Shown one piece after another: positions 31,952 to 46,573 of a stretch of DNA of 55,298 nucleotides; within the stretch, counting starts at the first letter, position 1; each line of letters starts with the position of its first letter. Both the position numbers and the translations under genes were made by a program. Source of the stretch: a virus; the IMG/VR virus record IMGVR_UViG_3300030107_001856, positions 1 to 55,298 of that record. The stretch is one strand, 5' to 3'. Below the pieces are notes generated by a model. That model was given only the letters and a program-made list of their open reading frames with translations, ran no database searches and was not told where the DNA came from.

Positions 31952-32668
31952 ATGGCTACAACTTTTATTACATTAGTTAATGATGCGTTGAGGCGGTTGA
32001 ATGAAGTGGAGCTTACTTCCACAGATTTTGCAACCGCCACTGGCTTTAGGGCATTAGTAAAAGATGCAGTAAATGCGTCTTTGCAAGAAATATCGCAAAA
32101 AGAATTTGAGTTTCCATTTAATCATACTACTGGCTCTCTTACACTTGTAGCAGGTACATCCCAATATACTTTGGCAACAGACTTAAAAGTAGCAGATTGG
32201 GATAGCTTTAGAATAAACTATGACTCTAGTAATAACTATTCTGCTAGAGTGTTAAAGCTACTAAACTATGACTCATATAATAGAAGATATTTTGAAAGAG
32301 ATTCAGAAGCAGATACTGGCGATAGAGATCAGCCTATTTATGTATACAGAACACTAGATACTAAAGCAGGATTTACCCCTATACCTGACGCAGCTTATAG
32401 TGTAAGCTACGATTACTTTGCATATGCAACAGATTTGTCTGCATCTACAGATACAATGACTGTACCAGATGCATTTAAACACGTTGTATTAGACGGTGCG
32501 CTATATCACTGTTTTATATTTAGAGATAACTCTCAACAGGCAGGAATAGCCAAGGCAAAGTTTGACGAAGGCATAGAAAGAATGCGTACCCTTCTTATAA
32601 ACAGATTTGTAGATGTAAGAGATACTCGCGTAAATCGCGTATTGAATGTTCCGCATGGTAATGCGTAA
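31952..32668 (+). CDS. Tail adaptor (gp11/tubular A-like) protein, 238 aa
   Basis: The pattern fits the podovirus protein joining portal to tail: an N-terminal LVNDALRRLNEVEL helix, LQEISQKEFEFPFNH, a central strand region with LKVADWDSF, and a C-terminal VVLDGALYHCFIFRDNSQQAGIAKAKFDEGIERMR helix. Length and position before the nozzle gene match. The stop overlaps the next start (TAATG). Confidence 0.8.
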   Translation: MATTFITLVNDALRRLNEVELTSTDFATATGFRALVKDAVNASLQEISQKEFEFPFNHTTGSLTLVAGTSQYTLATDLKVADWDSFRINYDSSNNYSARVLKLLNYDSYNRRYFERDSEADTGDRDQPIYVYRTLDTKAGFTPIPDAAYSVSYDYFAYATDLSASTDTMTVPDAFKHVVLDGALYHCFIFRDNSQQAGIAKAKFDEGIERMRTLLINRFVDVRDTRVNRVLNVPHGNA

Positions 32669-34779
32669 TGGTGGATGCGCTAAGAGATGTAACCGTAAGT
32701 AGTAGAGGGGGTCTATATACTAATGAGGACGCACTTACATTAGCTACTACTTTCCCTGGCTCTGCATTACGAATGTTGAACATGGAAATATCTCAGTTTG
32801 GTGGATATAGAAGAATTAACGGATATACATCTTATGACTCTAGCTATGGAACTATTTCAGGAGTAGGGCCTGTCTTAGGATTATTTATACTAGAGGATAC
32901 ACCTTACGCCATACGAAGAAACGATGGAGATTTTACAGGATCACTTGGGGCTAACCCTTTTACAACTAGTAGCAGTAGTGCAACAATTACTGTAGCCCAT
33001 ACTAGTCACGGTCTAGCGGTAAGCGACAGAGTTATATTTTCAGGATCTTCTGCTGTAAACGGCATAACGCCAAACGATGTAGAAATGACTGTTGCATCTG
33101 TTGTTGATGCTAATAGTTACACAGTTGCCTTTACATCTAACGCCAGTGGTTCAGGCAGTGGCGGGGGTAGCTCAGTAACATTTAAATACTTTGACGTATC
33201 GGCAGCAAAAACATTTACTTTAGGGTCAAACCCTTTAAGCGTTTCAAATGAGAGTGCAATAATAACCGTTGCTCACACTGCACATGGGTTATCTGTAGGT
33301 AACTTTGTTACTTTATCTGGTAGTGATGCAATAGGTGGCATAACGCCAAACGATGTAGAGATGACAGTTGCTACAGTTCCTGATGCAAATAGTTATACCC
33401 TTACCTTTACATCCGCTGCTACTTCTACAGTTAGTGGTGGAGGTGGGTCTTCAGTAACTGCTAAGTATAGTCAGTACTATACAATATTTAAATATAATAC
33501 AGGTGGTTGGACAAGGGTGCATTCGTTTAGATCGTCAATAGGTGTATCTAAAGTACGTCATTCGTTTAATGATTTAGAAAGTAGTGTGAGTGTAGTTTTA
33601 ACAGACGGGGTAAATTTACCTTGTAAAATTACAGGAACTACATTTAGTACACACACTGCAAACACAGACCCTAAAGACCCTGAAGGTGCAAAAGTATCTG
33701 CGTTGTTTTCTGGTAGAGTGTTCTACGCAGGGTTTCCAACAGGTGCAGGTGCAGGTGGCCCTAGCTTTGTATTATTTACAACGTCTGGTGATGATGATGA
33801 CTTTACTGGATCTGCAAATGTATTGGACATGGGATTTAGCGTTGTAGGTATTGCCCCATTTAGAGATTCTCTGTTTGTGTTTGGGGAAAGAGAGATTAAA
33901 AAAATAGTTGCGGATGCAACCACTGTATTTGCTGTTCAAGATGTAACCACTAATGTAGGATGTATTGCCACAGATAGCATAATAGAATTAGGCGGTGATA
34001 TTTTATTTCTAGCGTCAGATGGTATTCGGCCTATTCAAGGTACGGCAAGAATTGGTGACGTAGAACTACAAACTATTTCTAAACCCATACAACAACTATT
34101 ACAAGGTTTGCCTAGTAGTCACGATTTAGATAACATGACCTCTGTAGTTATAAGAAACAAATCTCAGTTTAGGTATTTTTTTCCCTCTACTAGTACAGCA
34201 GCATCAGATACAGCAGGTATAATAGGGGGCTTACGTTTTGCAGATAGAAGAGTTGGTTGGGAGTTTGGTGAACTATTAGGTATACGTGCGTTTGTAGCAA
34301 CTAGTGGTTTAATAAACAAAGTAGAAACAGTGCTACATGGGGATGGCAATGGTGAAATATTTAAACAGGAGAGTGGTAGTACATTTAACACTGCTGATGT
34401 TACTGCTGTTTACGCATCGCCATTTTTATATTTCGACTCTACCGAAAGACGTAAGATATTTCAACATATTACGTTATTCACCAGACCAGAGGGTGAATCT
34501 ACAATTAACTTGGGTATAGCGTATGATTGGGATGATCCTAATACACCTGACCCAAGCACCTATTCTATAACGACAGCAGGTTCGTTGGCTAGGTACACAA
34601 CTACGGGTAGCACATATGATGCTACATTTAGATATGACGGGTCAACTAGCCCCGTATTAGAAACAAACATTCAAGGATCAGGTAGGGCAATTTCTCTGGT
34701 TATAACATCAACAGGAACCCAAGCACCCTATAGCATTAGTGGGTTTTCCATAACTTATCAGGATGCAGGATACAGATAA
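32668..34779 (+). CDS. Tail nozzle protein, 703 aa
   Basis: The protein starts MVDALRDVTVSSRGGLYTNEDALT and continues with an NMEISQFGGYRRINGY segment, as in nozzle proteins of marine podoviruses (tubular B analogues). Two near-identical inserted modules (about residues 85-165 and 180-265) share SSATITVAHTSHGLAVSDRV and GITPNDVEMTV-like sequences; they are probably duplicated Ig-like domains. The rest resembles a beta-propeller body with KIVADATTVFAVQDVTTNVGC. It is linked by overlapping starts to both neighbours. Confidence 0.8.
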   Translation: MVDALRDVTVSSRGGLYTNEDALTLATTFPGSALRMLNMEISQFGGYRRINGYTSYDSSYGTISGVGPVLGLFILEDTPYAIRRNDGDFTGSLGANPFTTSSSSATITVAHTSHGLAVSDRVIFSGSSAVNGITPNDVEMTVASVVDANSYTVAFTSNASGSGSGGGSSVTFKYFDVSAAKTFTLGSNPLSVSNESAIITVAHTAHGLSVGNFVTLSGSDAIGGITPNDVEMTVATVPDANSYTLTFTSAATSTVSGGGGSSVTAKYSQYYTIFKYNTGGWTRVHSFRSSIGVSKVRHSFNDLESSVSVVLTDGVNLPCKITGTTFSTHTANTDPKDPEGAKVSALFSGRVFYAGFPTGAGAGGPSFVLFTTSGDDDDFTGSANVLDMGFSVVGIAPFRDSLFVFGEREIKKIVADATTVFAVQDVTTNVGCIATDSIIELGGDILFLASDGIRPIQGTARIGDVELQTISKPIQQLLQGLPSSHDLDNMTSVVIRNKSQFRYFFPSTSTAASDTAGIIGGLRFADRRVGWEFGELLGIRAFVATSGLINKVETVLHGDGNGEIFKQESGSTFNTADVTAVYASPFLYFDSTERRKIFQHITLFTRPEGESTINLGIAYDWDDPNTPDPSTYSITTAGSLARYTTTGSTYDATFRYDGSTSPVLETNIQGSGRAISLVITSTGTQAPYSISGFSITYQDAGYR

Positions 34780-37412
34780 TGGCAGGATACACTAGACAAT
34801 CAGCAGCTCAAATTGTTAGTGGTGAGGTTATATCAGCAGCACCACTTAACGCAGAACTAAACCAAGTATTAGCAGCATTTAATAATTCTACAGGCCACTC
34901 GCATGATGGCACAGCAGCAGAAGGCCCACCCATAGATCGTATAGCAGATGCAGACCAGAAGAATGCTGTATTAATAGATACCTCTAACGATCATATTGAG
35001 TTTTACATAGAAGATAGTGGTACTGCTACGCAACAAGTTCATATTGCAGATGGTGCTATACTTCCTACAAATAATAATGATATTGATCTAGGTAGTACAT
35101 CATTAAAGTTTAAAGACATACACTCATCAGGTACAACTAGAATGGAAAATGCTACTGTTGCTGGTACATTAACTGCTACAGGTGCATTTACAGGGTCTAG
35201 TACATTACAAGGAACTACAATAACTGCCACAACTGCATTTGTACCTGATGCATCTGACGGTGCTTCTTTAGGCACTACATCATTAGAGTTTAGTGATCTG
35301 TTCCTTGCTGATGGTGCAGTAATTAATTTAGGTGATGATCAAGACGTTACACTAACTCACGTAGAAAATACAGGTGTTTTACTAAATAGTACTAATCAAC
35401 TACAATTTGGAGATAGCGGTACTTACATACATCAATCTGCTGATGGTGTATTGGACTTAGTAGCAGATACTGAAATAGAAATAAATGCAACAACTGTAGA
35501 TGTAAATGGTGCGGTAGAAATTAGCGGTAACGCAACTGTAGGTGGAACACTTACTTCTACTGGTAAAATTACTGCTGATGCTGGTATTGATATAGATAAC
35601 TTTAACATTGATGGTACAACTATAGCATTATCTTCTGGTGATATGACTGTAGATGCTGCTGGAGATATTATATTAGATGCAGATGGTGCTGATGTATTAC
35701 TAAAAGATGATGGCACACAGTATGGTGCATTAACAAACAACTCAGGTAACTTAATAATTAAATCTGGTTCTACTACCGCTGCTACATTTACTGGAGCTAA
35801 CACTGCATTAGCTGGAACTCTCAGTGCTACTGCAATTAGTGTAGGTGATGGTAACATAACTAACGTAGGTGATATTGCTGTTGACTCTATCTCTGCTGAT
35901 GATACAGATATTAATGTAGCTGTAACAGATAACTCAGCTACTGCATTTACAATTAAACAGGGATCAGATGCTTATCTTATTGTTGATACAGCTAATAGCA
36001 GTGAGTCCGTATCTATCGGTACTGGCGTATCTGGTACTGCTGTAACAATAGGACACGGTACATCTGAAGTAACTATAGGCGATAACTTAACTGTTACAGG
36101 TAATCTTACAGTTAGTGGAACACAGACAGTCGTAGATACTGTTACGATGAATGCTCAAAATGCTGTAGTGTTTGAAGGTTCTACTGCTGATGAGAATGAA
36201 ACTACACTTACCATAATAGATCCTACTGCTGATCGTACAATTAATCTACCTAACCAATCTGGTACAATTCCAGTACTAGCTGCTGTAAGTACAACACAGA
36301 TTACATCTACACCAGAAGAACTAAACATATTAGATGGTGTTACATCAGATGCTTCTGAGTTAAACATACTTGACGGAGCTACAGTTACTGCTACTGAACT
36401 AAACATTATGGATGGTGATACAACAGCTTCAAGTACTACAATAGCAGATGCAGACAGAGTAGTTGTCAATGATGCTGGAACTATGAAGCAAGTTGCAGTT
36501 ACAGACTTAGCTGCATACTTTGATGATGAAATAACTGCAATGCCTAATTTAGTTTCTACTGGTGCATTAGATAGTGGTAGTATAAGCTCTGGATTTGGTG
36601 CAATAGATAATGGCTCATCTAATATCACAACAACAGGCACAGTATCCTTTGGATCACTTACTGATGGTTCTGTAACAATTACAGACATAGCTGATGAAGA
36701 TGACTTTAGTAGTAATAGTGCAACCAAACTAGCTACACAACAAAGCATCAAAGCATATGTAGAAGCTAACAGAGATGTTCAAGGTGTTACTGCTACAGGT
36801 ACAGAAATAAATACAAGCTCTGATGGTGATACTTCAGTAGGCACTACAGCAGTTGCAGGTAGTGATGGTATTGTCACTAACGATGCAGGTACAATGAGAC
36901 AAACATCTGTAGATACATTTGATACATATTTAGCAGCAACCACTAAAACACTTACAAACAAAACGCTTACTGCACCTAAGATAGTTGATGGTGGTTTTAT
37001 TGCTGATGCAAACGGTAATGAAGGTATAGTATTACAGACAGCTAGTTCTGCCGTAAATGCTGTAGAGATAACTAATGCAGCATCAGGTGGATCTGTAGTT
37101 GTTGGAGCTATGGGAGATGATTCTAACATCGACATAGACATTACACCTAAAGGTACTGGTGAAGTAAATATAGCAGCAGGTAATTTAAACTATGGTGGAA
37201 CAGCAGTTACATCTACTGGTGCAGAGATAAATAAACTAGCTGGATACAATGGGTCTGTAACTGAATTGAACTATCTTAAATCATTATATGATACTGATGT
37301 TACCAGTACAGAATATGATTACTTGAGCGGTGTATCAAGTAACATACAAACACAATTAAATTCTAGAGCATCGACAGGTAAGGCTATTGCAATGGCAATG
37401 GTATTTGGCTAA
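34779..37412 (+). CDS. Tail fibre, 877 aa
   Basis: The N-terminus (AAQIVSGEVISAAPLNAELNQVLAAFNNSTGHSHDG) is the tail-attachment domain common in marine podovirus fibres. Then comes a beta-helical region of Ala/Thr/Gly/Asp-rich repeats, including three successive ELNI(L/M)DG-type units near 515-560, a pattern seen in many fibres. The C-terminus (GKAIAMAMVFG) is a short conserved end. It probably forms a trimer and contacts the cell surface. Codons are biased to A/T third positions. Confidence 0.85.
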   Translation: MAGYTRQSAAQIVSGEVISAAPLNAELNQVLAAFNNSTGHSHDGTAAEGPPIDRIADADQKNAVLIDTSNDHIEFYIEDSGTATQQVHIADGAILPTNNNDIDLGSTSLKFKDIHSSGTTRMENATVAGTLTATGAFTGSSTLQGTTITATTAFVPDASDGASLGTTSLEFSDLFLADGAVINLGDDQDVTLTHVENTGVLLNSTNQLQFGDSGTYIHQSADGVLDLVADTEIEINATTVDVNGAVEISGNATVGGTLTSTGKITADAGIDIDNFNIDGTTIALSSGDMTVDAAGDIILDADGADVLLKDDGTQYGALTNNSGNLIIKSGSTTAATFTGANTALAGTLSATAISVGDGNITNVGDIAVDSISADDTDINVAVTDNSATAFTIKQGSDAYLIVDTANSSESVSIGTGVSGTAVTIGHGTSEVTIGDNLTVTGNLTVSGTQTVVDTVTMNAQNAVVFEGSTADENETTLTIIDPTADRTINLPNQSGTIPVLAAVSTTQITSTPEELNILDGVTSDASELNILDGATVTATELNIMDGDTTASSTTIADADRVVVNDAGTMKQVAVTDLAAYFDDEITAMPNLVSTGALDSGSISSGFGAIDNGSSNITTTGTVSFGSLTDGSVTITDIADEDDFSSNSATKLATQQSIKAYVEANRDVQGVTATGTEINTSSDGDTSVGTTAVAGSDGIVTNDAGTMRQTSVDTFDTYLAATTKTLTNKTLTAPKIVDGGFIADANGNEGIVLQTASSAVNAVEITNAASGGSVVVGAMGDDSNIDIDITPKGTGEVNIAAGNLNYGGTAVTSTGAEINKLAGYNGSVTELNYLKSLYDTDVTSTEYDYLSGVSSNIQTQLNSRASTGKAIAMAMVFG

Positions 37413-37808: not shown

Positions 37809-40388
37809 ATGAGATCTGTAGGTGACATAGCTTTAGATGCTGAAGTACGAGCTATTGCTAGTGGTGCAATAACAGATGGTGCGCCAGTTGTTGTAAACTC
37901 TGCTGGTACTGTTAGCGGTATTAGCGGAAGTGCAGCATCAACAGGCACTGCTGTTGTATTTGCAACTGCTAGTACAGGAGCAGCAAGTGCTGCTTTTGAT
38001 AGCAGTAGTAATAAAGTTGTTATAGTTTTTACAGACTCTGGTAATAGTAATTATGGTACAGCAATTGTAGGTGATGTTTCTGGTACATCAATTTCTTTTG
38101 GCTCAGAAGTAGTTTATGAAAGTGGTAATCATTTTTATGAGGATGTTACATTTGATAGTAATAGTAATAGAATTGTAATTGCTTACGCTGACGGAAGTAA
38201 CTCAAATTATGGTACTGCTGTAGTAGGAACGGTTAGTGGGACATCTATCTCTTTTGGAACACCAGTAGTTTTTGAAAGTGCGTATCCAGAAGAAAGTCAA
38301 ATTACTTTTGATAGCAATTCTAATAAAGTTGTAATTGCTTATAGTGATCAGGGAAATAGCGCACACGGTACAGCAATTGTTGGCACTGTTGATCCATCAG
38401 ATAATAGTATTTCTTTTGGTACGGCTGTTGTATTTGAAGCTGCCGATTCAAGAAATTGTGGAATAACTTTTGACAGTAATAGTAACAAAGTAGTTATAGC
38501 ATATAGAGATGCAGGTAATTCTAGCTATGGTACTGCTATCGTAGGAACAGTCAGTGGAACAAGTATCTCATTTGGAACACCTGCTGTTTATGGATCTTAT
38601 ACAGCCCAACACAATAGACCACGTTTTAATAGCAATGATAATACAATAGTTATATCTCATACTAATGCTACAGCTTCAACAGGTTCAGTAATTGTAGGGT
38701 CAGTTAGTGGAACAAGCATTGGTAGCTTTGGAACCGCTGCTAGTTATGAAACTTCAACTCCTAGTGATCCAAGAGCAACTTTTGATACTAGTCGCAATCA
38801 AATAGTTATCGCTTATAGAGATCAAGATGATACAAAAGGTAAATTTATAGTAGGAACTGTAAGCGGTAATTCAGTTACTTTAGCAGACGCTATTATTTAT
38901 GAAGCTGGTGCGCCAAATACTCCTGGAATAACATTTGACAGTAACAGTAATAAGGTAGTTGTAGGATACGCAGATGGTGGAGATAGTAATAAAGGTAAGG
39001 CTGTTGTATTTAATGGAAGTGATTTAAACCTAACCTCAGAAAACTTCATAGGCTTTGCAAACGCAGCATATGCTGATGGACAAAAAGCTACTGTAAAAAC
39101 TACTGGATCGATTGCTAGGAATATACCGCAACAGGCATCTGCTTCTGACGCATTTGGAGATGAAACTGTATTTGAAAGTGCAGATTCTACTTGGATTGCA
39201 AGTACCTTTGATTCTAACAGCAATAAAGTAGTTATAGGATATAGAGATGTTGGAAACTCAAACTATGGTACAGCTATAGTAGCTACTGTAAGTGGTTCAT
39301 CTATAAGTTATGGAACTCCTGTTGTATATAATAGTGCAACAACTACAGAAAATGTACTTACTTTTGATAGTAATAATAATAAAGTTGTAATTGCATATAA
39401 TAATGGTGGTGATTCAGGTCATGGATATGCAATAGTTGGTACGGTATCTGGTACTAGTATTAGTTTTGGTTCTGCTACTGAGTTTGAAAATGCCACTATA
39501 GCCAATCATTCAATTACATTTGATAGTAATGTAAATAGAGTTGTAATATCATTTAAAGATGAAGGAAATAGTAACTATGCTACAGCTATAGTAGGGGCAG
39601 TAAGTGGCACATCTATATCATTTGGTTCTCCTGTTGTATATGAAAGTGCTAATCCAGAGGAACAAGCAATAACATTTGATTCTAATAGTAACAAAGTAGT
39701 TATTGCGTATAGAGATCATGGAAATTCTCAACATGGCACTGCTATTGTTGGCACTGTAGATTCATCAGACAACAGTATTAGTTTTGGTTCAGCAGCGGTA
39801 TTTAATGCAGCACAAACTAAAGTAGGTGGTATTACTTTTGATTCTAATAGTAACAAGGTAGTTATTGTATATAGCGATCTAGGAAATGGTCAAAAAGGTA
39901 CTGCTATTGTAGGTACAGTTTCTGGTACTAGCATTAGTTTTGGTAGTGAATCTGTATTTAAAGATGCTCAAATTGAGATAGAAAGCAGAACTCATGCTAC
40001 CTTTAATAGCGGAATTAATAAAGTAATAATCACTTATATGAGAATTAGTGACGATGGTGCATATTATGCAGGAACAGTGGTAACAGGCACAGTATCAGGT
40101 ACAGATATAACTTTTGAAACACCTGTTGTATTTAATGCTGCAACTTCTTCATATTCAACTCCTATTTATGACAGTAGTAATAATAGAACAGTTATAACGT
40201 ATAGAGATGTTGGAAATAGTAACTACGGCACTGCAATAGTTTTAGTTAATGCTGGAACACCAGAAGACCTTACAATAGGACAACAATATTTCGTACAAAC
40301 AGATGGAACATTAGGTACTAGTGCTGATGATCCATCGGTAATCGCAGGAACTGCAATAGGCACTAGTGATATAATTGTGAAAGGATAA
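37809..40388 (+). CDS. Double seven-repeat adhesin-like protein A, 859 aa
   Basis: Two blocks of seven imperfect repeats of about 45-55 residues (consensus FDSNSNKVVIAYRDxGNSNYGTAIVG followed by TVSGTSISFG) lie at about residues 55-405 and 455-815. They are joined by a hinge, ENFIGFANAAYADGQKATVKT. A conserved N-cap (GAITDGAPVVVNSAGTV) and C-cap (QQYFVQTDGTLGTSADDPS...IIVKG) flank the blocks. Seven repeats with alternating strand pattern fit seven-bladed beta-propellers. It is probably a surface protein that binds host glycans or receptors. Two paralogues follow. Confidence 0.75.
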   Translation: MRSVGDIALDAEVRAIASGAITDGAPVVVNSAGTVSGISGSAASTGTAVVFATASTGAASAAFDSSSNKVVIVFTDSGNSNYGTAIVGDVSGTSISFGSEVVYESGNHFYEDVTFDSNSNRIVIAYADGSNSNYGTAVVGTVSGTSISFGTPVVFESAYPEESQITFDSNSNKVVIAYSDQGNSAHGTAIVGTVDPSDNSISFGTAVVFEAADSRNCGITFDSNSNKVVIAYRDAGNSSYGTAIVGTVSGTSISFGTPAVYGSYTAQHNRPRFNSNDNTIVISHTNATASTGSVIVGSVSGTSIGSFGTAASYETSTPSDPRATFDTSRNQIVIAYRDQDDTKGKFIVGTVSGNSVTLADAIIYEAGAPNTPGITFDSNSNKVVVGYADGGDSNKGKAVVFNGSDLNLTSENFIGFANAAYADGQKATVKTTGSIARNIPQQASASDAFGDETVFESADSTWIASTFDSNSNKVVIGYRDVGNSNYGTAIVATVSGSSISYGTPVVYNSATTTENVLTFDSNNNKVVIAYNNGGDSGHGYAIVGTVSGTSISFGSATEFENATIANHSITFDSNVNRVVISFKDEGNSNYATAIVGAVSGTSISFGSPVVYESANPEEQAITFDSNSNKVVIAYRDHGNSQHGTAIVGTVDSSDNSISFGSAAVFNAAQTKVGGITFDSNSNKVVIVYSDLGNGQKGTAIVGTVSGTSISFGSESVFKDAQIEIESRTHATFNSGINKVIITYMRISDDGAYYAGTVVTGTVSGTDITFETPVVFNAATSSYSTPIYDSSNNRTVITYRDVGNSNYGTAIVLVNAGTPEDLTIGQQYFVQTDGTLGTSADDPSVIAGTAIGTSDIIVKG

Positions 40389-40394
40389 ACACAC

Positions 40395-40652
40395 ATGGCT
40401 AAGACAATCGTAGAGAATGAAACTAAACTAAGTAAATATGTATTCGCTGATGATAAACCAGTGACTATGGGATCTGACATGATCACTGTTGGTAGTGATC
40501 CAGTAGATTTCTATATCGCTGATCTCAACAGTAGCAATGCAACAATGCACGAAGATGTAACTGCACCTGATGGTTGGTCAGGCAATAAGCATTTCTTTGA
40601 TGGAACCAATTGGACTAACAATTCCGATTGGGTAGATCCTAACGCAGAATAA
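40395..40652 (+). CDS. Small structural protein, 85 aa
   Basis: This acidic beta-strand protein (KTIVENETKLSKYVFADDKPVTMG) has a Trp/Asn-rich C-terminus (HFFDGTNWTNNSDW). The KYVF-x-DD-x-x-V-x-(M/L)-x-(S/D) pattern is common in marine phage proteins near fibres. It starts 6 nt after protein A and ends 8 nt before protein B, so all are made from one mRNA. Function unknown; virion association is inferred from place. Confidence 0.6.
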   Translation: MAKTIVENETKLSKYVFADDKPVTMGSDMITVGSDPVDFYIADLNSSNATMHEDVTAPDGWSGNKHFFDGTNWTNNSDWVDPNAE

Positions 40653-40660
40653 GGATTACT

Positions 40661-43315
40661 ATGCGTATCATTGGTAATAATCCACAATTATCTAGGCAGA
40701 CACAAGCAACAGCCTCTGGTGCTATTACTGGAGGTAAGCCTGTAGTTGTGAATACTACTGGTACTGTTACGCAAATTAGTGAAACTACAGAAGCATTAGG
40801 TACTGCTGTAGTTTATGAGTCTGCAAATGCTCAATATGGTTCATCTACATTTGATAGTAACAGTAACAGAGTAGTTACAGTTTATATGGATGACGCTAAC
40901 AGCGATTATGGTACGGCTGTTGTTGGTGCAGTAGATGCATCTGATAACAGTATTTCTTATGGAACACCTGTTGTATTTGTAAGTGGAAGTACTGGAACTA
41001 CTGTTATTAAAGCTACATTTGATAGCAATAGCAATAAAGTAGTTATAGTGTGGTCTGACAGTAGCGACAGTGTTAAAGGAAAAGCGATAGTTGGAACAGT
41101 AGATCCATCTGATAACTCAATTAGTTTTGGTTCTGCAACTACATTTGAAGCTGGTGGTACTTATGAGCCTAATGTTACATTTGATAGTAGTAATAATAAA
41201 GTTGTTATTATTTATAAAGATGCTGGTAACAGTTATTATTTTACCTCCATCGTAGGAACTGTATCAGGTACTTCTATCTCTTTTGGAACTGCTGTAGTAA
41301 TCGTAAGCGCAAATTATAGTTACTTTGCTATTACTTTTGACAGTTCAAATAATAAAGTTGTTGCTGCGTTAAGAGGTGCTAGTAATCATGGTCAGTCTTA
41401 TGTAGGTACTGTAAGTGGAACAGGTATTAGTTGGGGTACTGTAGCTACGTTTCACGAAGTAGCCCCTGCTCATGTTAGCGCAACATTTGATAGTAACTCT
41501 AACAAAACTGTATTTACATATAGGGAAAATATTACGGATGATGGATTTGCAGTTGTAGGCACAGTATCTGGCACAGATATAACTTTTGGAACGCCTGTAG
41601 AGTTTGAAAATGCTGACGTATCTTATACTTCTGCAAGTTTTAATAGTAATGTTAATAAAATTATTCTTGCCTATAGAGATGAGGGAAACTCCAACTATGG
41701 TACATATCTTATAGGAACTGTAAGCGGAACAAGTATTAGTTTTGGATCAGCTGCTGTATTTGAAACTGCCGATTCAGAATATAACTCTGTTGTATTTGAT
41801 AGTAGTACAAATAGATCAGTTATAACTTATAGAGATGGTGGTAACAGCAATTATGGTACTGCAATAGTTTTAAGACCTGCTGTAGCAACAAACATAACAT
41901 CAGAAAACTTCATAGGCTTTGCACAAGATACAGTAGCAACTGGGCAACCTGTTACGATCAATACTAAAGGTGCTATTGTTGATAATATACCACCCACAGC
42001 AGTAGCTGTTCCTACACCTACAAACAGAACAATTATAGAAGAGGTTTCTTCAAATTATCTTTTTAGATCAACAACAATCTCTCTTGGATCAGGAAAATTT
42101 GTAATATTATATACTATATATTTAGGTTCTGGAGAACCTGTAGTGTATTATAAAGTAGGCACTATTGATCAAGCTACCAATACTGTTTCCTATAGCGATA
42201 GAACTTCTACTAACGCTTTTACTGCATATAGTCTATCTGGGATATTAGATACAAATGCTAATAGAATTGTTGTAGCATATGAAAATGCAACAGATGGTAA
42301 AGGTTACGCAGCAGTAGGTACTGTTTCAGGAAACACTATTTCTTTTGGAACTCCTGTTGTTTTTGAAGACGCTGTGGCAAAAGAGATAAATCTTACTTTT
42401 GACTCTACTGCTAATAAAGTAATTATTTCATGGAGAGATCAAAATAATAGCCAGTATGGCACTGCTATTGTAGCAACTGTAGACAATTCTGATAATAGTA
42501 TTTCTTTTGGAACTGCTGTAGTTTATGAAAGTGCCTATACTATTACTTTTCCACCAAATGCTATAACTTATGACAGTAATAGTAACAGAGTTGTTATTGT
42601 ATATAGAGATGTTGGAGACAGTAATAAAGGTAAGGCTATTGTAGGAACTGTATCAGGTACGTCTATTTCTTTTGGAACTGCGGTAGATGTAGATACTGGC
42701 AACCCTACTGATTACCTTACAGCAGTTTTTAATCCCGATGTAAATAAAGTTCTTATTACTTATGATGCAAGTGACAAAAAAGGAAAAAGTAAGATTGGTA
42801 CTGTATCAGGCACAAGCATTAGTCTTACAGGTGTTACTATTTTTAATAATGATACAAACAATGATGGTACTATTTATCAATCTAGTTGTTATGATACAAC
42901 CTCAAATACTCATTTAATAGTTTATAGAGACAATACATTAAGCGGTGACAGTACTAACCATGTATACGGAATAATTGGTACTATGAATGGAGATGGATCT
43001 GCTATCAGTTATGGTACTGAGTTTGCAATCGATCTTAATGCGGTTATTAATCCAGGAGGTAATCAGGATGGTAATGGTTGGAAAACACAATGTATTTATG
43101 ACAGCACAACGGAAAGATTTATAGTTACTTATGATTTTGATGTCTTAAAAAAACTTGCAACTTCTATGGTTATTCCAATAGGAGGAGGACTTAGTATGAC
43201 ACCAGCCCAAACATATTATGTACAGACAGATGGTACATTAAGTCAGACAGCAGATGATCCATCAGTAACAGCAGGAACAGCAGTAGCTGGTTCTACATTG
43301 ATTGTGAAAGGGTAA
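40661..43315 (+). CDS. Double seven-repeat adhesin-like protein B, 884 aa
   Basis: The layout equals that of protein A: N-cap (GAITGGKPVVVNTTGTVTQIS), seven repeats at about 50-405, hinge ENFIGFAQDTVATGQPVTINT at about 414, seven more diverged repeats at about 460-845, and C-cap (QTYYVQTDGTLSQTADDPSVTAG...IVKG). The second block has lost much of the repeat consensus, for instance YDTTSNTHLIVYRDNT and YDSTTERFIVTYDF. Its function is likely binding to the cell surface. Relative to A, repeats differ strongly in sequence but not in number. Confidence 0.75.
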   Translation: MRIIGNNPQLSRQTQATASGAITGGKPVVVNTTGTVTQISETTEALGTAVVYESANAQYGSSTFDSNSNRVVTVYMDDANSDYGTAVVGAVDASDNSISYGTPVVFVSGSTGTTVIKATFDSNSNKVVIVWSDSSDSVKGKAIVGTVDPSDNSISFGSATTFEAGGTYEPNVTFDSSNNKVVIIYKDAGNSYYFTSIVGTVSGTSISFGTAVVIVSANYSYFAITFDSSNNKVVAALRGASNHGQSYVGTVSGTGISWGTVATFHEVAPAHVSATFDSNSNKTVFTYRENITDDGFAVVGTVSGTDITFGTPVEFENADVSYTSASFNSNVNKIILAYRDEGNSNYGTYLIGTVSGTSISFGSAAVFETADSEYNSVVFDSSTNRSVITYRDGGNSNYGTAIVLRPAVATNITSENFIGFAQDTVATGQPVTINTKGAIVDNIPPTAVAVPTPTNRTIIEEVSSNYLFRSTTISLGSGKFVILYTIYLGSGEPVVYYKVGTIDQATNTVSYSDRTSTNAFTAYSLSGILDTNANRIVVAYENATDGKGYAAVGTVSGNTISFGTPVVFEDAVAKEINLTFDSTANKVIISWRDQNNSQYGTAIVATVDNSDNSISFGTAVVYESAYTITFPPNAITYDSNSNRVVIVYRDVGDSNKGKAIVGTVSGTSISFGTAVDVDTGNPTDYLTAVFNPDVNKVLITYDASDKKGKSKIGTVSGTSISLTGVTIFNNDTNNDGTIYQSSCYDTTSNTHLIVYRDNTLSGDSTNHVYGIIGTMNGDGSAISYGTEFAIDLNAVINPGGNQDGNGWKTQCIYDSTTERFIVTYDFDVLKKLATSMVIPIGGGLSMTPAQTYYVQTDGTLSQTADDPSVTAGTAVAGSTLIVKG

Positions 43316-43320
43316 CAGAT

Positions 43321-45087
43321 ATGTCTGGTAGATATAAAGCTGTTCCAACTGGCACAATAGCAAATGGTAAACCTGTATTAGTTAATAGTGCTGGTACTGT
43401 TACGCAAGTTGCACAAACTTCTATATCACAACAGTTTGGTTCAGATGTTCTTTTTAATAGCAGCAATGAATCTTCATATATAACAAATGTATATGACAGT
43501 AGTAATAATAAAGTTGTTACTCTTTATGTAAACCAAGATGGATCAAATGATGGTACAGCTAACGTAGGAACAATAGATACTAGTGACAATAGTATTAGTT
43601 ATGGTTCAGCAGGTGAATATACAACCAATTTTGGTTTCTATAATAGTAGTACATTTGATAGTAATAGTAATAAAGTTGTTCAAGTTTATGCTGATAACGG
43701 TAACTCTAATTATGGTACGGCTGCTGTTGGCACAGTTAGCGGAACAGATATAACTTTTGGTACTCCTGTAGTGTTTGAAAGTGCAGCAATAGGGCATCAT
43801 ACTGCTACAACTTTTGACACCGATAGTAATAAAGTTGTTATTGCATTTAAAGGGACTTCAAATTATGGAAGAGCTATCGTAGGTACAGTTTCTGGAACAG
43901 GTATAAGTTTTGGTTCTGTTGCTAATTTTAACGCAAGTAATACAAACTGGATAGCTTCTACTTTTGATAGCAATAGTAACAAAGTTGTTATTAGTTATAG
44001 AGATGATGGAAACTCTAACTACGGTACAGCTATTGTAGGCACAGTTTCAAGTACTAGTATAAGTTTTGGATCAGAAGTTGTATATAATAGTGCTACTACA
44101 GAAAAACAAGGTGCTGCTTTTGATAGTAATAGTAATAAAGTTGTACTTTTTTATCAGGATCAAGGTAATTCAAATAAAGGCACTGCTATCGTAGGTACGG
44201 TTTCTGGAACAAGTATAAGTTTTGGATCAGAAGCTGTATTTGAAGAAGGTGATACAGAAGAAATTGCAGCAGTTTTTGATACTAGTATCAATAAAATCGT
44301 TGTTGCTTATATAGATAAAGGTGACAGTAATGCAGGTAAAGTAAATGTAGGAACTGTTAGTGGTACGTCTATAAGTTTTGGAACAGCTATTACTTTTGAA
44401 TCTGGATCTACAAGTAATAGTGCTAGAGGAATAGCTTTAGCATATGATGTTAATGCTAACAGAAGTGTAGTTAGTTGGATGGATGGGGGAAACTCTAATC
44501 GAGGAACAACAGCAGTTTATCTAGCACCAAGCACCTCAACTAATTTAACAGCATCTACATCAGAAGGTTATATAGGATTATCTAATGCCTGTTCATTTCA
44601 TGGTGCTACAGAAACATATACAGTAACAGTAGCCTCTGGTGTATTCTACTTAAATGGTTTAGCAAATCCACCAATACAATTACTAAGAGGCCATACATAC
44701 ATATTTGATCAAGCTGATGGTACTAATGATGGTCATCCATTTCATTTTAAAGATACAGGAGGAAGTCAATATACTAGTGGCGTAACTGTTACAGGTACAG
44801 CAGGAACTTCAGGTGCTAAAGTAACTATTGTCGTACCTATAGATGCAACAGAGCCAAGTCAGTATTATTGTACTGTACACGGTAATGGTATGGGTAATGT
44901 AATTACCATAGAAGAAAGTTTTGCAGAGATAGATGTAGTAGGCACAGTAAACAAACATCAATCAGGTCTAACGGCAGGTCAGACATATTATGTACAGACT
45001 GATGGCACATTAGGAACGAGTGCAGATAGTCCTAGTGTAGTAGCTGGTACGGCAATATCTGCAACAGAAATTATAGTAAAAGGATAG
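43321..45087 (+). CDS. Seven-repeat adhesin-like protein C with cupredoxin domain
   Basis: The protein has the N-cap, one block of seven repeats (about 40-400), then a hinge remnant (EGYIGLSNACSFHG) and a cupredoxin-like domain at about 432-534. Finally comes the same C-cap (QTYYVQTDGTLGTSADSPS...IIVKG). The domain has a beta-sandwich pattern with possible type 1 copper ligands: His472 or His475 (GHPFHF), C517, H520 and M524 (YYCTVHGNGMG). In A and B a second repeat block occupies this place. Copper binding is inferred from the ligand pattern. Confidence 0.75.
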   Translation: MSGRYKAVPTGTIANGKPVLVNSAGTVTQVAQTSISQQFGSDVLFNSSNESSYITNVYDSSNNKVVTLYVNQDGSNDGTANVGTIDTSDNSISYGSAGEYTTNFGFYNSSTFDSNSNKVVQVYADNGNSNYGTAAVGTVSGTDITFGTPVVFESAAIGHHTATTFDTDSNKVVIAFKGTSNYGRAIVGTVSGTGISFGSVANFNASNTNWIASTFDSNSNKVVISYRDDGNSNYGTAIVGTVSSTSISFGSEVVYNSATTEKQGAAFDSNSNKVVLFYQDQGNSNKGTAIVGTVSGTSISFGSEAVFEEGDTEEIAAVFDTSINKIVVAYIDKGDSNAGKVNVGTVSGTSISFGTAITFESGSTSNSARGIALAYDVNANRSVVSWMDGGNSNRGTTAVYLAPSTSTNLTASTSEGYIGLSNACSFHGATETYTVTVASGVFYLNGLANPPIQLLRGHTYIFDQADGTNDGHPFHFKDTGGSQYTSGVTVTGTAGTSGAKVTIVVPIDATEPSQYYCTVHGNGMGNVITIEESFAEIDVVGTVNKHQSGLTAGQTYYVQTDGTLGTSADSPSVVAGTAISATEIIVKG

Positions 45088-45334: not shown

Positions 45335-46573
45335 ATGGTATCAACAATTACAGGCCCAGGATCAGAATTTGTAAACTATGCTATAGATAATCCAGATGTT
45401 CAAAATCATGCTTTAGCAGTTGCAGCTGGAACTGGGGCAATTCAAGGCACTCCAGAATTTGCAACTGCATATAGAAAAGCAATGGTGGAACACGCTGTAA
45501 ATTTTGGAGTAACAGAAGGAAGGGATAATGTTGGGCCTCTTGCTTCTCTTGCAGGTAATTCAGAATTTCCTGATGTACTTCCTCCTCCTCCTCCCCCTGC
45601 TCCACCTGCTGATACCAGTACTGATACAGGTGGTACAGGTGGTACAGGTGGTACAGGTGGTACTGGAGGTACTGGAGGAGAGGATACTGGAGATGTAACA
45701 TCTGCAATAACTACAGCTTTAGCCCCTTTACTAGATAGACTTACAGATATAGAAAGCAATCAAACCTCTCTTATGTCTCCTACAGCAGTAGGAACAGCTA
45801 CTCCTGCACCCACACCAGCTACCGCTACTGATTTAGAACCCGTAACAGAAGATATAGGTGATGTACAGGCAGATACTACTGCAATACGTGGCGATATAGG
45901 CACTAGGGCAGAGGGGCAACCTGCAACTCTTATGGGGCAGACTGCTGGATTAGCACAAGGCCAGACAGACATAACGGGGCGTATTGGTACAGCCCCTACT
46001 ACAGATGCTACATTATTTAGTGGTCAGGAAGGATTAGCCCAAGACCTTACTACCGCGCAACAGGGTATAACAGGGGTACAGGCAGGTATTGGCGAGGCTC
46101 CAGTTGACCCTACAACGGGTGATCCTACAACTTTGTTTCAAGGTCAGGCAGGTCTAATGGCTGGACAGACAGGGCTAACAGGTGCTATAAGTGGCGTAGG
46201 GAGTCAGGCTTCAGCCATAGGTAGCGATTTAACTGCATTGACAAATCAATTAACTAACTTTGAGAACCTGTCAAATGCAGATAGGGCAAATCTTCTATCG
46301 ACATTAAATACTCGCGCCACTGAGTTAAAAGACCTAGCAAACACATATGGCCTACAAACAAATAGAATAGCAGAGCAACTTACAGGAGTACCTGCACCAA
46401 CAGGTATGATGGCACAAGCTGCACCAGTAGCAGGATCTTTACCTGCCGTACTAGCTGCTGAGAGAGCGCAAAATACAGCTACCCAAAACATAAACAGGGG
46501 CCTCATGGATGTAGCTGAACAGGGGCAAGTAGGTGCGCTAGGGCCAGTTACTCCAGACCCAAGGGTGGGCTAA
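45335..46573 (+). CDS. Virion-associated protein with Pro and Gly-Thr tracts, 412 aa
   Basis: The N-terminal 70 residues are helical (FATAYRKAMVEHAVNFGVTEG). A Pro run (PPPPPPAPP) and a GGT repeat tract form a flexible linker at about 84-112. The middle (about 165-285) has repeated segments with DIG, GQ and GLA-Q units in a loosely heptad order, typical of fibrous or ejected proteins. No enzyme motif is seen. It is the first of the internal virion protein candidates. Confidence 0.55.
   Translation: MVSTITGPGSEFVNYAIDNPDVQNHALAVAAGTGAIQGTPEFATAYRKAMVEHAVNFGVTEGRDNVGPLASLAGNSEFPDVLPPPPPPAPPADTSTDTGGTGGTGGTGGTGGTGGEDTGDVTSAITTALAPLLDRLTDIESNQTSLMSPTAVGTATPAPTPATATDLEPVTEDIGDVQADTTAIRGDIGTRAEGQPATLMGQTAGLAQGQTDITGRIGTAPTTDATLFSGQEGLAQDLTTAQQGITGVQAGIGEAPVDPTTGDPTTLFQGQAGLMAGQTGLTGAISGVGSQASAIGSDLTALTNQLTNFENLSNADRANLLSTLNTRATELKDLANTYGLQTNRIAEQLTGVPAPTGMMAQAAPVAGSLPAVLAAERAQNTATQNINRGLMDVAEQGQVGALGPVTPDPRVG
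45624..45680 (+). repeat. 9-nt tandem repeat coding for Gly-Gly-Thr
   Basis: A unit ACAGGTGGT is repeated about six times, the last ones with silent A/T and A/G changes. It codes for the GGT tract in the 412-aa virion protein. Such short-unit arrays change length by slippage and always stay in frame here. Confidence 0.85.

Follow-up and report, generated by a model that had tools for sequence, protein, structure and literature searches.

The window, the whole stretch of DNA analysed here, is a marine bacterial virus record of 55,298 nucleotides (IMGVR_UViG_3300030107_001856) whose genes are ordered as in Puniceispirillum phage HMO-2011: terminase, portal, P22-like coat protein, tail hub, long tail fibre, the three proteins that we call A, B and C, and internal virion proteins. 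The portal is 65% identical to those of HMO-2011 and Roseobacter phages and, judged by its portal, coat protein family and gene order, the source virus is an HMO-2011-type podovirus, a kind of phage described as abundant in the ocean. The tail-hub-like structural protein (32668-34779), kin to phrog_3287 and phrog_5107, is a virion gene that co-occurs with the A/B/C trio. The long tail fibre gene upstream of A (34779-37412) is the counterpart of HMO-2011 gp43, and the N-terminus MAGYTRQS is common to both. These genes, the trio and a small gene within it are all encoded on the + strand.

Protein A occupies slot 1 (37809-40388, 859 aa), begins with the N-terminal tag MRSVGDIALDAEVRA and combines two predicted seven-bladed propellers, A1 (37935-39024) and A2 (39147-40257), in one carrier domain. 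Protein B, in slot 2 (40661-43315, 884 aa), has the tag MRIIGNNPQLSRQTQ and likewise two propellers, B1 (40790-41885) and B2 (42026-43174), while protein C, in slot 3 (43321-45087, 588 aa), has one propeller (43432-44533) and a putative cupredoxin-like insert in its carrier domain (44590-44960). Block limits were taken from a profile of the repeat unit, with AlphaFold2 as a further source for C. A preliminary description of this DNA had placed three genes in a row after the fibre, at 37809-44520. The location and the start hold, and the genes are neighbours; a gene of 85 aa (40395-40652) separates A from B, and C stops at 45087, position 44520 being roughly where its propeller ends. The share of the genome given in that description, about 7 kb or 13 percent, agrees with our measurement (about 7.3 kb of 55,298 bases, or 13 percent). 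Directly 3' of C lies a protein of 412 aa (45335-46573) that is Gly/Thr- and Pro-rich, with coiled-coil-like repeats; a family search with it returned no match.

The repeat unit in A, B and C is about 52 residues long. Counted with the profile, which was made from the window's own units, A contains 7+7 units (each 39-72 bits) and C contains seven (41-71 bits). Block 1 of B has seven units, and block 2 has five clear ones with a very weak one on either side (0.3 and -0.5 bits); these two we accepted because their position and predicted strands support them. The 33 clear units score 38-72 bits, far above chance given that the best spurious match among 150 shuffled protein copies reached 12.8 bits. 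The count of 7+7, 7+7 and 7 made at first reading is therefore correct, with the first and last units of B2 degenerate. Mutual identity among the five blocks is 39-56%.

The same number recurs in relatives, for which we examined 164 distinct proteins from 79 related virus loci. By automated count, about 180 complete blocks consist of exactly seven units; nearly all exceptions are missed weak units, recognizable from spacing gaps of about 103 or about 193 residues, or a misread block edge, and one very divergent protein (locus L030) was uncountable by this method. These proteins carry one or two blocks each, and their length varies mainly by entire seven-unit blocks. A 2353-aa protein at locus L091 has four blocks of seven. 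The proposal of a constant seven is thus extended to the relatives, and a variable repeat number, which the preliminary description had named as evidence to the contrary, was not seen.

Other architectures were observed as well. The 2353-aa protein (L091:2607-9665) has a cupredoxin-like start, and each of its four blocks lies in its own carrier; its contig, binned as marine Euryarchaeota, is likely a viral or misbinned phage contig. Three single-propeller proteins of 739-750 aa (L057:161-2410, L022:3901-6117 and L041:4472-6709) carry an additional insert, about 260 residues long. The one in L057 lies inside the carrier, holds a different kind of stretch (DGSKMYLAGQDTDYIYQYS) and may be another sort of propeller.

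Structure prediction supports the reading of these blocks as closed seven-bladed beta-propellers, with seven four-stranded units per domain, rather than the open arrays that had been set against them. The AlphaFold2 model of C, based on 83 natural sequences, is a closed seven-bladed propeller with pLDDT mostly 94-98 over the propeller, and the model of B (38 sequences) contains two, with less confidence for the second. In a Foldseek search of the PDB, the top matches were seven-bladed PLL-family lectins, most of whose entries had a TM-score, by target length, of 0.75-0.79, as did CIA1. A whole-chain search with B retrieved large eukaryotic two-propeller proteins at low TM and was uninformative beyond the presence of two propellers; B2 was superposed on solved propellers through these two-propeller matches of whole B only. 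A further feature comes from the consensus of 83 relatives, in which an outer D strand (GSxxVFES) precedes unit 1 and none follows unit 7, so that the beginning of the domain would supply the missing strand of the last blade, a signature of a closed ring. We infer that the N- and C-terminal strands combine in one blade in this way. An open solenoid was rejected on the predicted fold, the fixed unit number and this closure signature. Sequence searches of the propellers against Pfam, NCBI phage records and the PDB gave no useful match, and the Pfam and PDB searches included none to solved or curated receptor-binding families; weak single-repeat matches to Agenet, CUB and WDR35 were judged to be chance or generic.

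Whole propellers have been traded from one gene slot to another and among viruses whose capsids are unrelated, at 91-98% DNA identity. For instance, block 2 of slot 2 in L001 corresponds to block 2 of slot 1 in L002 (97% protein and 91% DNA identity), and block 2 of slot 1 in L004 corresponds to block 2 of slot 2 in L009 (94% and 91%). Similarly, the slot 1 propeller of L014 is found in slot 2 of L062 (98% and 92%), and that of L019 in slot 3 of L020 (92% and 93%). A 91% propeller is common to L006, which has the window-type capsid, and L032, in which no capsid of that type is detectable and whose record may be a fragment. In the close relative L003, exactly A2 is absent (window 39125-40268). 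At a DNA identity of at least 85%, all 24 internal alignment ends, which are not all independent events, fall outside units 1-6; with looser cut-offs, 1-3 of about 50-65 ends, again not all independent, fall inside them. These alignments show breakpoints at propeller edges, with whole propellers exchanged rather than single blades. The modularity suggested at first reading proves stronger than the sequence alone could tell, with entire propellers moving from gene to gene and from virus to virus.

The three slots differ in their N-terminal tags. In the 35 loci where all three genes are complete, the tag, taken as the first 34 residues, has a mean identity of 50-55% within a slot and 41-45% between slots; the propellers carry no slot signal, with 44-46% identity within and between slots. 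The carrier domain runs from an N-terminal part through the propeller and a linker (ENFIGFA...G) to a C-terminal part (LTAGQxYFVQTDGTL...IVKG). The second propeller, where there is one, occupies a second carrier loop, and the insert of C occupies a third place. This insert matches PHROG 30742, a tail fiber family (E=1.4e-12), and tblastn matched 63 phage records, most of which are cyanophages and match along the insert; cyanophages and pelagiphages share this stretch in their tail fibre proteins. The putative name cupredoxin-like is taken from its His/Cys motif only (HPFHF...YCTVHGNGMG); the insert is poorly modelled because a single relative in the alignment has it.

The 85-aa gene is a regular companion of the propeller genes. 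A homologue lies beside them at about 60 related loci, and in 28 of the 35 three-gene loci it follows the first propeller gene; it is also present in L091 and L092, two contigs binned as marine Euryarchaeota. Searches of PHROG and Pfam with this protein gave no match. Its homologue in Lentibacter phage ICBM2 is gp48, annotated there as a chaperone of tail assembly or as a tail fiber protein, and the 85-aa protein is a candidate chaperone or adaptor.

Variation is unevenly distributed over the propeller. Across 537 units, per-position entropy is highest in the crossover from D to A and in the loop from B to C. By the topology of a propeller both lie on one face; on the opposite face, the turn from C to D is nearly fixed. 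Pooled dN/dS is 0.38 for the variable face, against about 0.15 at other positions, values that are descriptive since the face classes were set with the entropy known. Strong positive selection on the variable face was not seen, dN/dS staying below 1 even there. A diversity-generating retroelement was rejected: the variation is not restricted to one short stretch, and a PHROG scan of the 20 larger ORFs found no reverse transcriptase.

On the virion, the gene neighbourhood favours the tail as the place of these proteins. Two unrelated capsid types occur among trio-bearing records: of 22 such records, 6 have the window-type coat protein and two others a Mu gpT-like coat, with a different terminase in the one where it was read. 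The phrog_3287 family is present in 18 of the 22, at low similarity in the window's lineage; its kinship to a head-closure or tail protein family and its gene place point to a tail hub. Within the tail fibre module the trio stands beside the long fibre gene, on its 3' side, and HMO-2011 and CRP-1 carry other tail genes at the same place. The trio tracks one hub family rather than a capsid type and sits among tail genes; the propeller proteins would be part of the virion and probably attached to the tail.

The same co-occurrence weighs against the alternative that the propeller proteins decorate the capsid, where a cement-type carrier on the head would display the propellers, for example to hold the phage to particles, mucus or glycans before infection. 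This idea draws on the carrier, which was searched, in natural sequences with the propeller removed, against the cement families PF09956 and PF22758. Of 29 such carriers, 17 match Phage_cement_2 (best E 2.2e-4), 10 match Phage_cement (best E 1.4e-6) and 9 a minor capsid family as well, many matches to the cement families lying under the curated cut-offs. Intact proteins in 6 of 11 records match Phage_cement_2 at 15-23 bits, against a cut-off of 24 bits, the window scoring 15.3 bits. Yet none of the intact natural proteins in the window and the 11 records passes that cut-off, the window's own carrier (of the first member) falls below both curated cement cut-offs, and a profile comparison of the carrier with the E217 gp24 cement family found nothing. 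A partly hand-idealised carrier sequence that scored 25.1 bits, over the cut-off, was discarded in favour of the natural ones. The carrier seems to resemble phage cement families weakly, which we treat as a lead only; with the trio accompanying unrelated capsid types but one tail-hub family, and located among tail genes, capsid decoration is unlikely.

Attachment to the tail fits the explanation that we consider probable, namely that A, B and C are exchangeable receptor- or glycan-binding adhesin heads on a short-tailed HMO-2011-type marine phage. The slot-specific N-terminal tag probably docks each protein, and a small beta-rich carrier split by insertions would hold one or two closed seven-bladed propellers in its loops. 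Variable rim loops on one face, from strand D to A and from B to C, would bind host surface molecules, most likely glycans, with the opposite propeller face conserved. Glycans are suggested because the closest folds are lectins and because the propeller of phage phi11 has one as its suggested target (PMC4901313); the propeller fold is common, so that the fold by itself is no proof of binding, and host receptor or glycan binding is proposed by analogy. Recombination among the three slots and from virus to virus, in which an entire propeller is replaced, would be the main source of change, and since only complete rings would fold, the number would stay at seven. A more specific version, which we offer tentatively and at slightly under even chances, is a combinatorial adhesin system with three docking slots, one or two propellers in each, and a pool common to lineages with unrelated capsids, in which recognition would be altered by changing the hand of propellers and not by loop mutation.

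Two other roles for the propellers can be weighed against the same observations. They could be structural tail spacers without a binding role, comparable to the seven-bladed domain of the SU10 nozzle, and propellers do occur in nozzle proteins of T7 and SU10 (PMC9509320). Such spacers are hard to reconcile with a block number and propeller identity that vary freely among close relatives while the hub is kept, with one variable propeller face, and with a separate hub-like protein already present in the phage, so that we regard this role as very improbable. The least probable role is catalysis, for example as glycan-degrading tail enzymes. The fold matches do include sialidases, propeller enzymes with six blades, but the TM-scores of those in the list (0.35-0.58) are far below those of the seven-bladed lectins, no enzyme family was matched in Pfam, and the variable positions lie in face loops. 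Moreover, every blade repeats the strongly conserved D6, K11, D18 and SGTS turn, a pattern that fits a structural role and not a single active site.

If the propellers are indeed exchangeable adhesin heads, a family with almost no annotated relatives gains a fold and a likely role. Well-delimited, stable modules in a shared pool would make host recognition testable block by block, and such a pool would explain the fast evolution of a repeat protein at an unchanging repeat number.

The best fold match, the PLL, PHL and BP39L lectins, also has seven blades of four strands; these lectins are 11-14% identical in sequence to the propellers described here and are single soluble proteins, not phage parts. 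PLL lectins have conserved sugar-binding tryptophans in sites between blades (PMC12203525). Such tryptophans are missing here, with a mean of 0.7 Trp per propeller and none in 94 of 174 propellers, and no PLL lectin was matched by sequence in the PDB. Among phages, gp131C of Pseudomonas phage phiKZ (PDB 4GBF) is a seven-bladed propeller at the baseplate periphery with a suggested receptor-binding function (PMC4901313). Compared by description, it is the C-terminal domain of one protein, whereas five propellers in three slots are found here, which have no sequence match to it. We know of no evidence of propeller exchange for gp131C. In gp45, the receptor-binding protein of Staphylococcus phage phi11, an N-terminal strand joins the last blade and closes the ring (PMC4901313), as we propose for these blocks, again in a phage receptor-binding protein; unlike them, gp45 has five blades, forms a trimer with a coiled-coil stem and serves a phage of a Gram-positive host. 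A further counterpart is gp49 of Lentibacter phage vB_LenP_ICBM2, which together with gp48 belongs to the tail fibre module (PMC6775973). At about 30% identity it has the same carrier and, counted by eye, seven units, but ICBM2 belongs to another family, Zobellviridae, and has one propeller protein where the window has three. In T4-like and other phages, recombination exchanges the host-recognition parts of tail fibres and leaves the attachment end conserved. The system described here differs from such modular exchange in that what changes place is a closed ring whose blade number is fixed, interchangeable among three slots of one virus.
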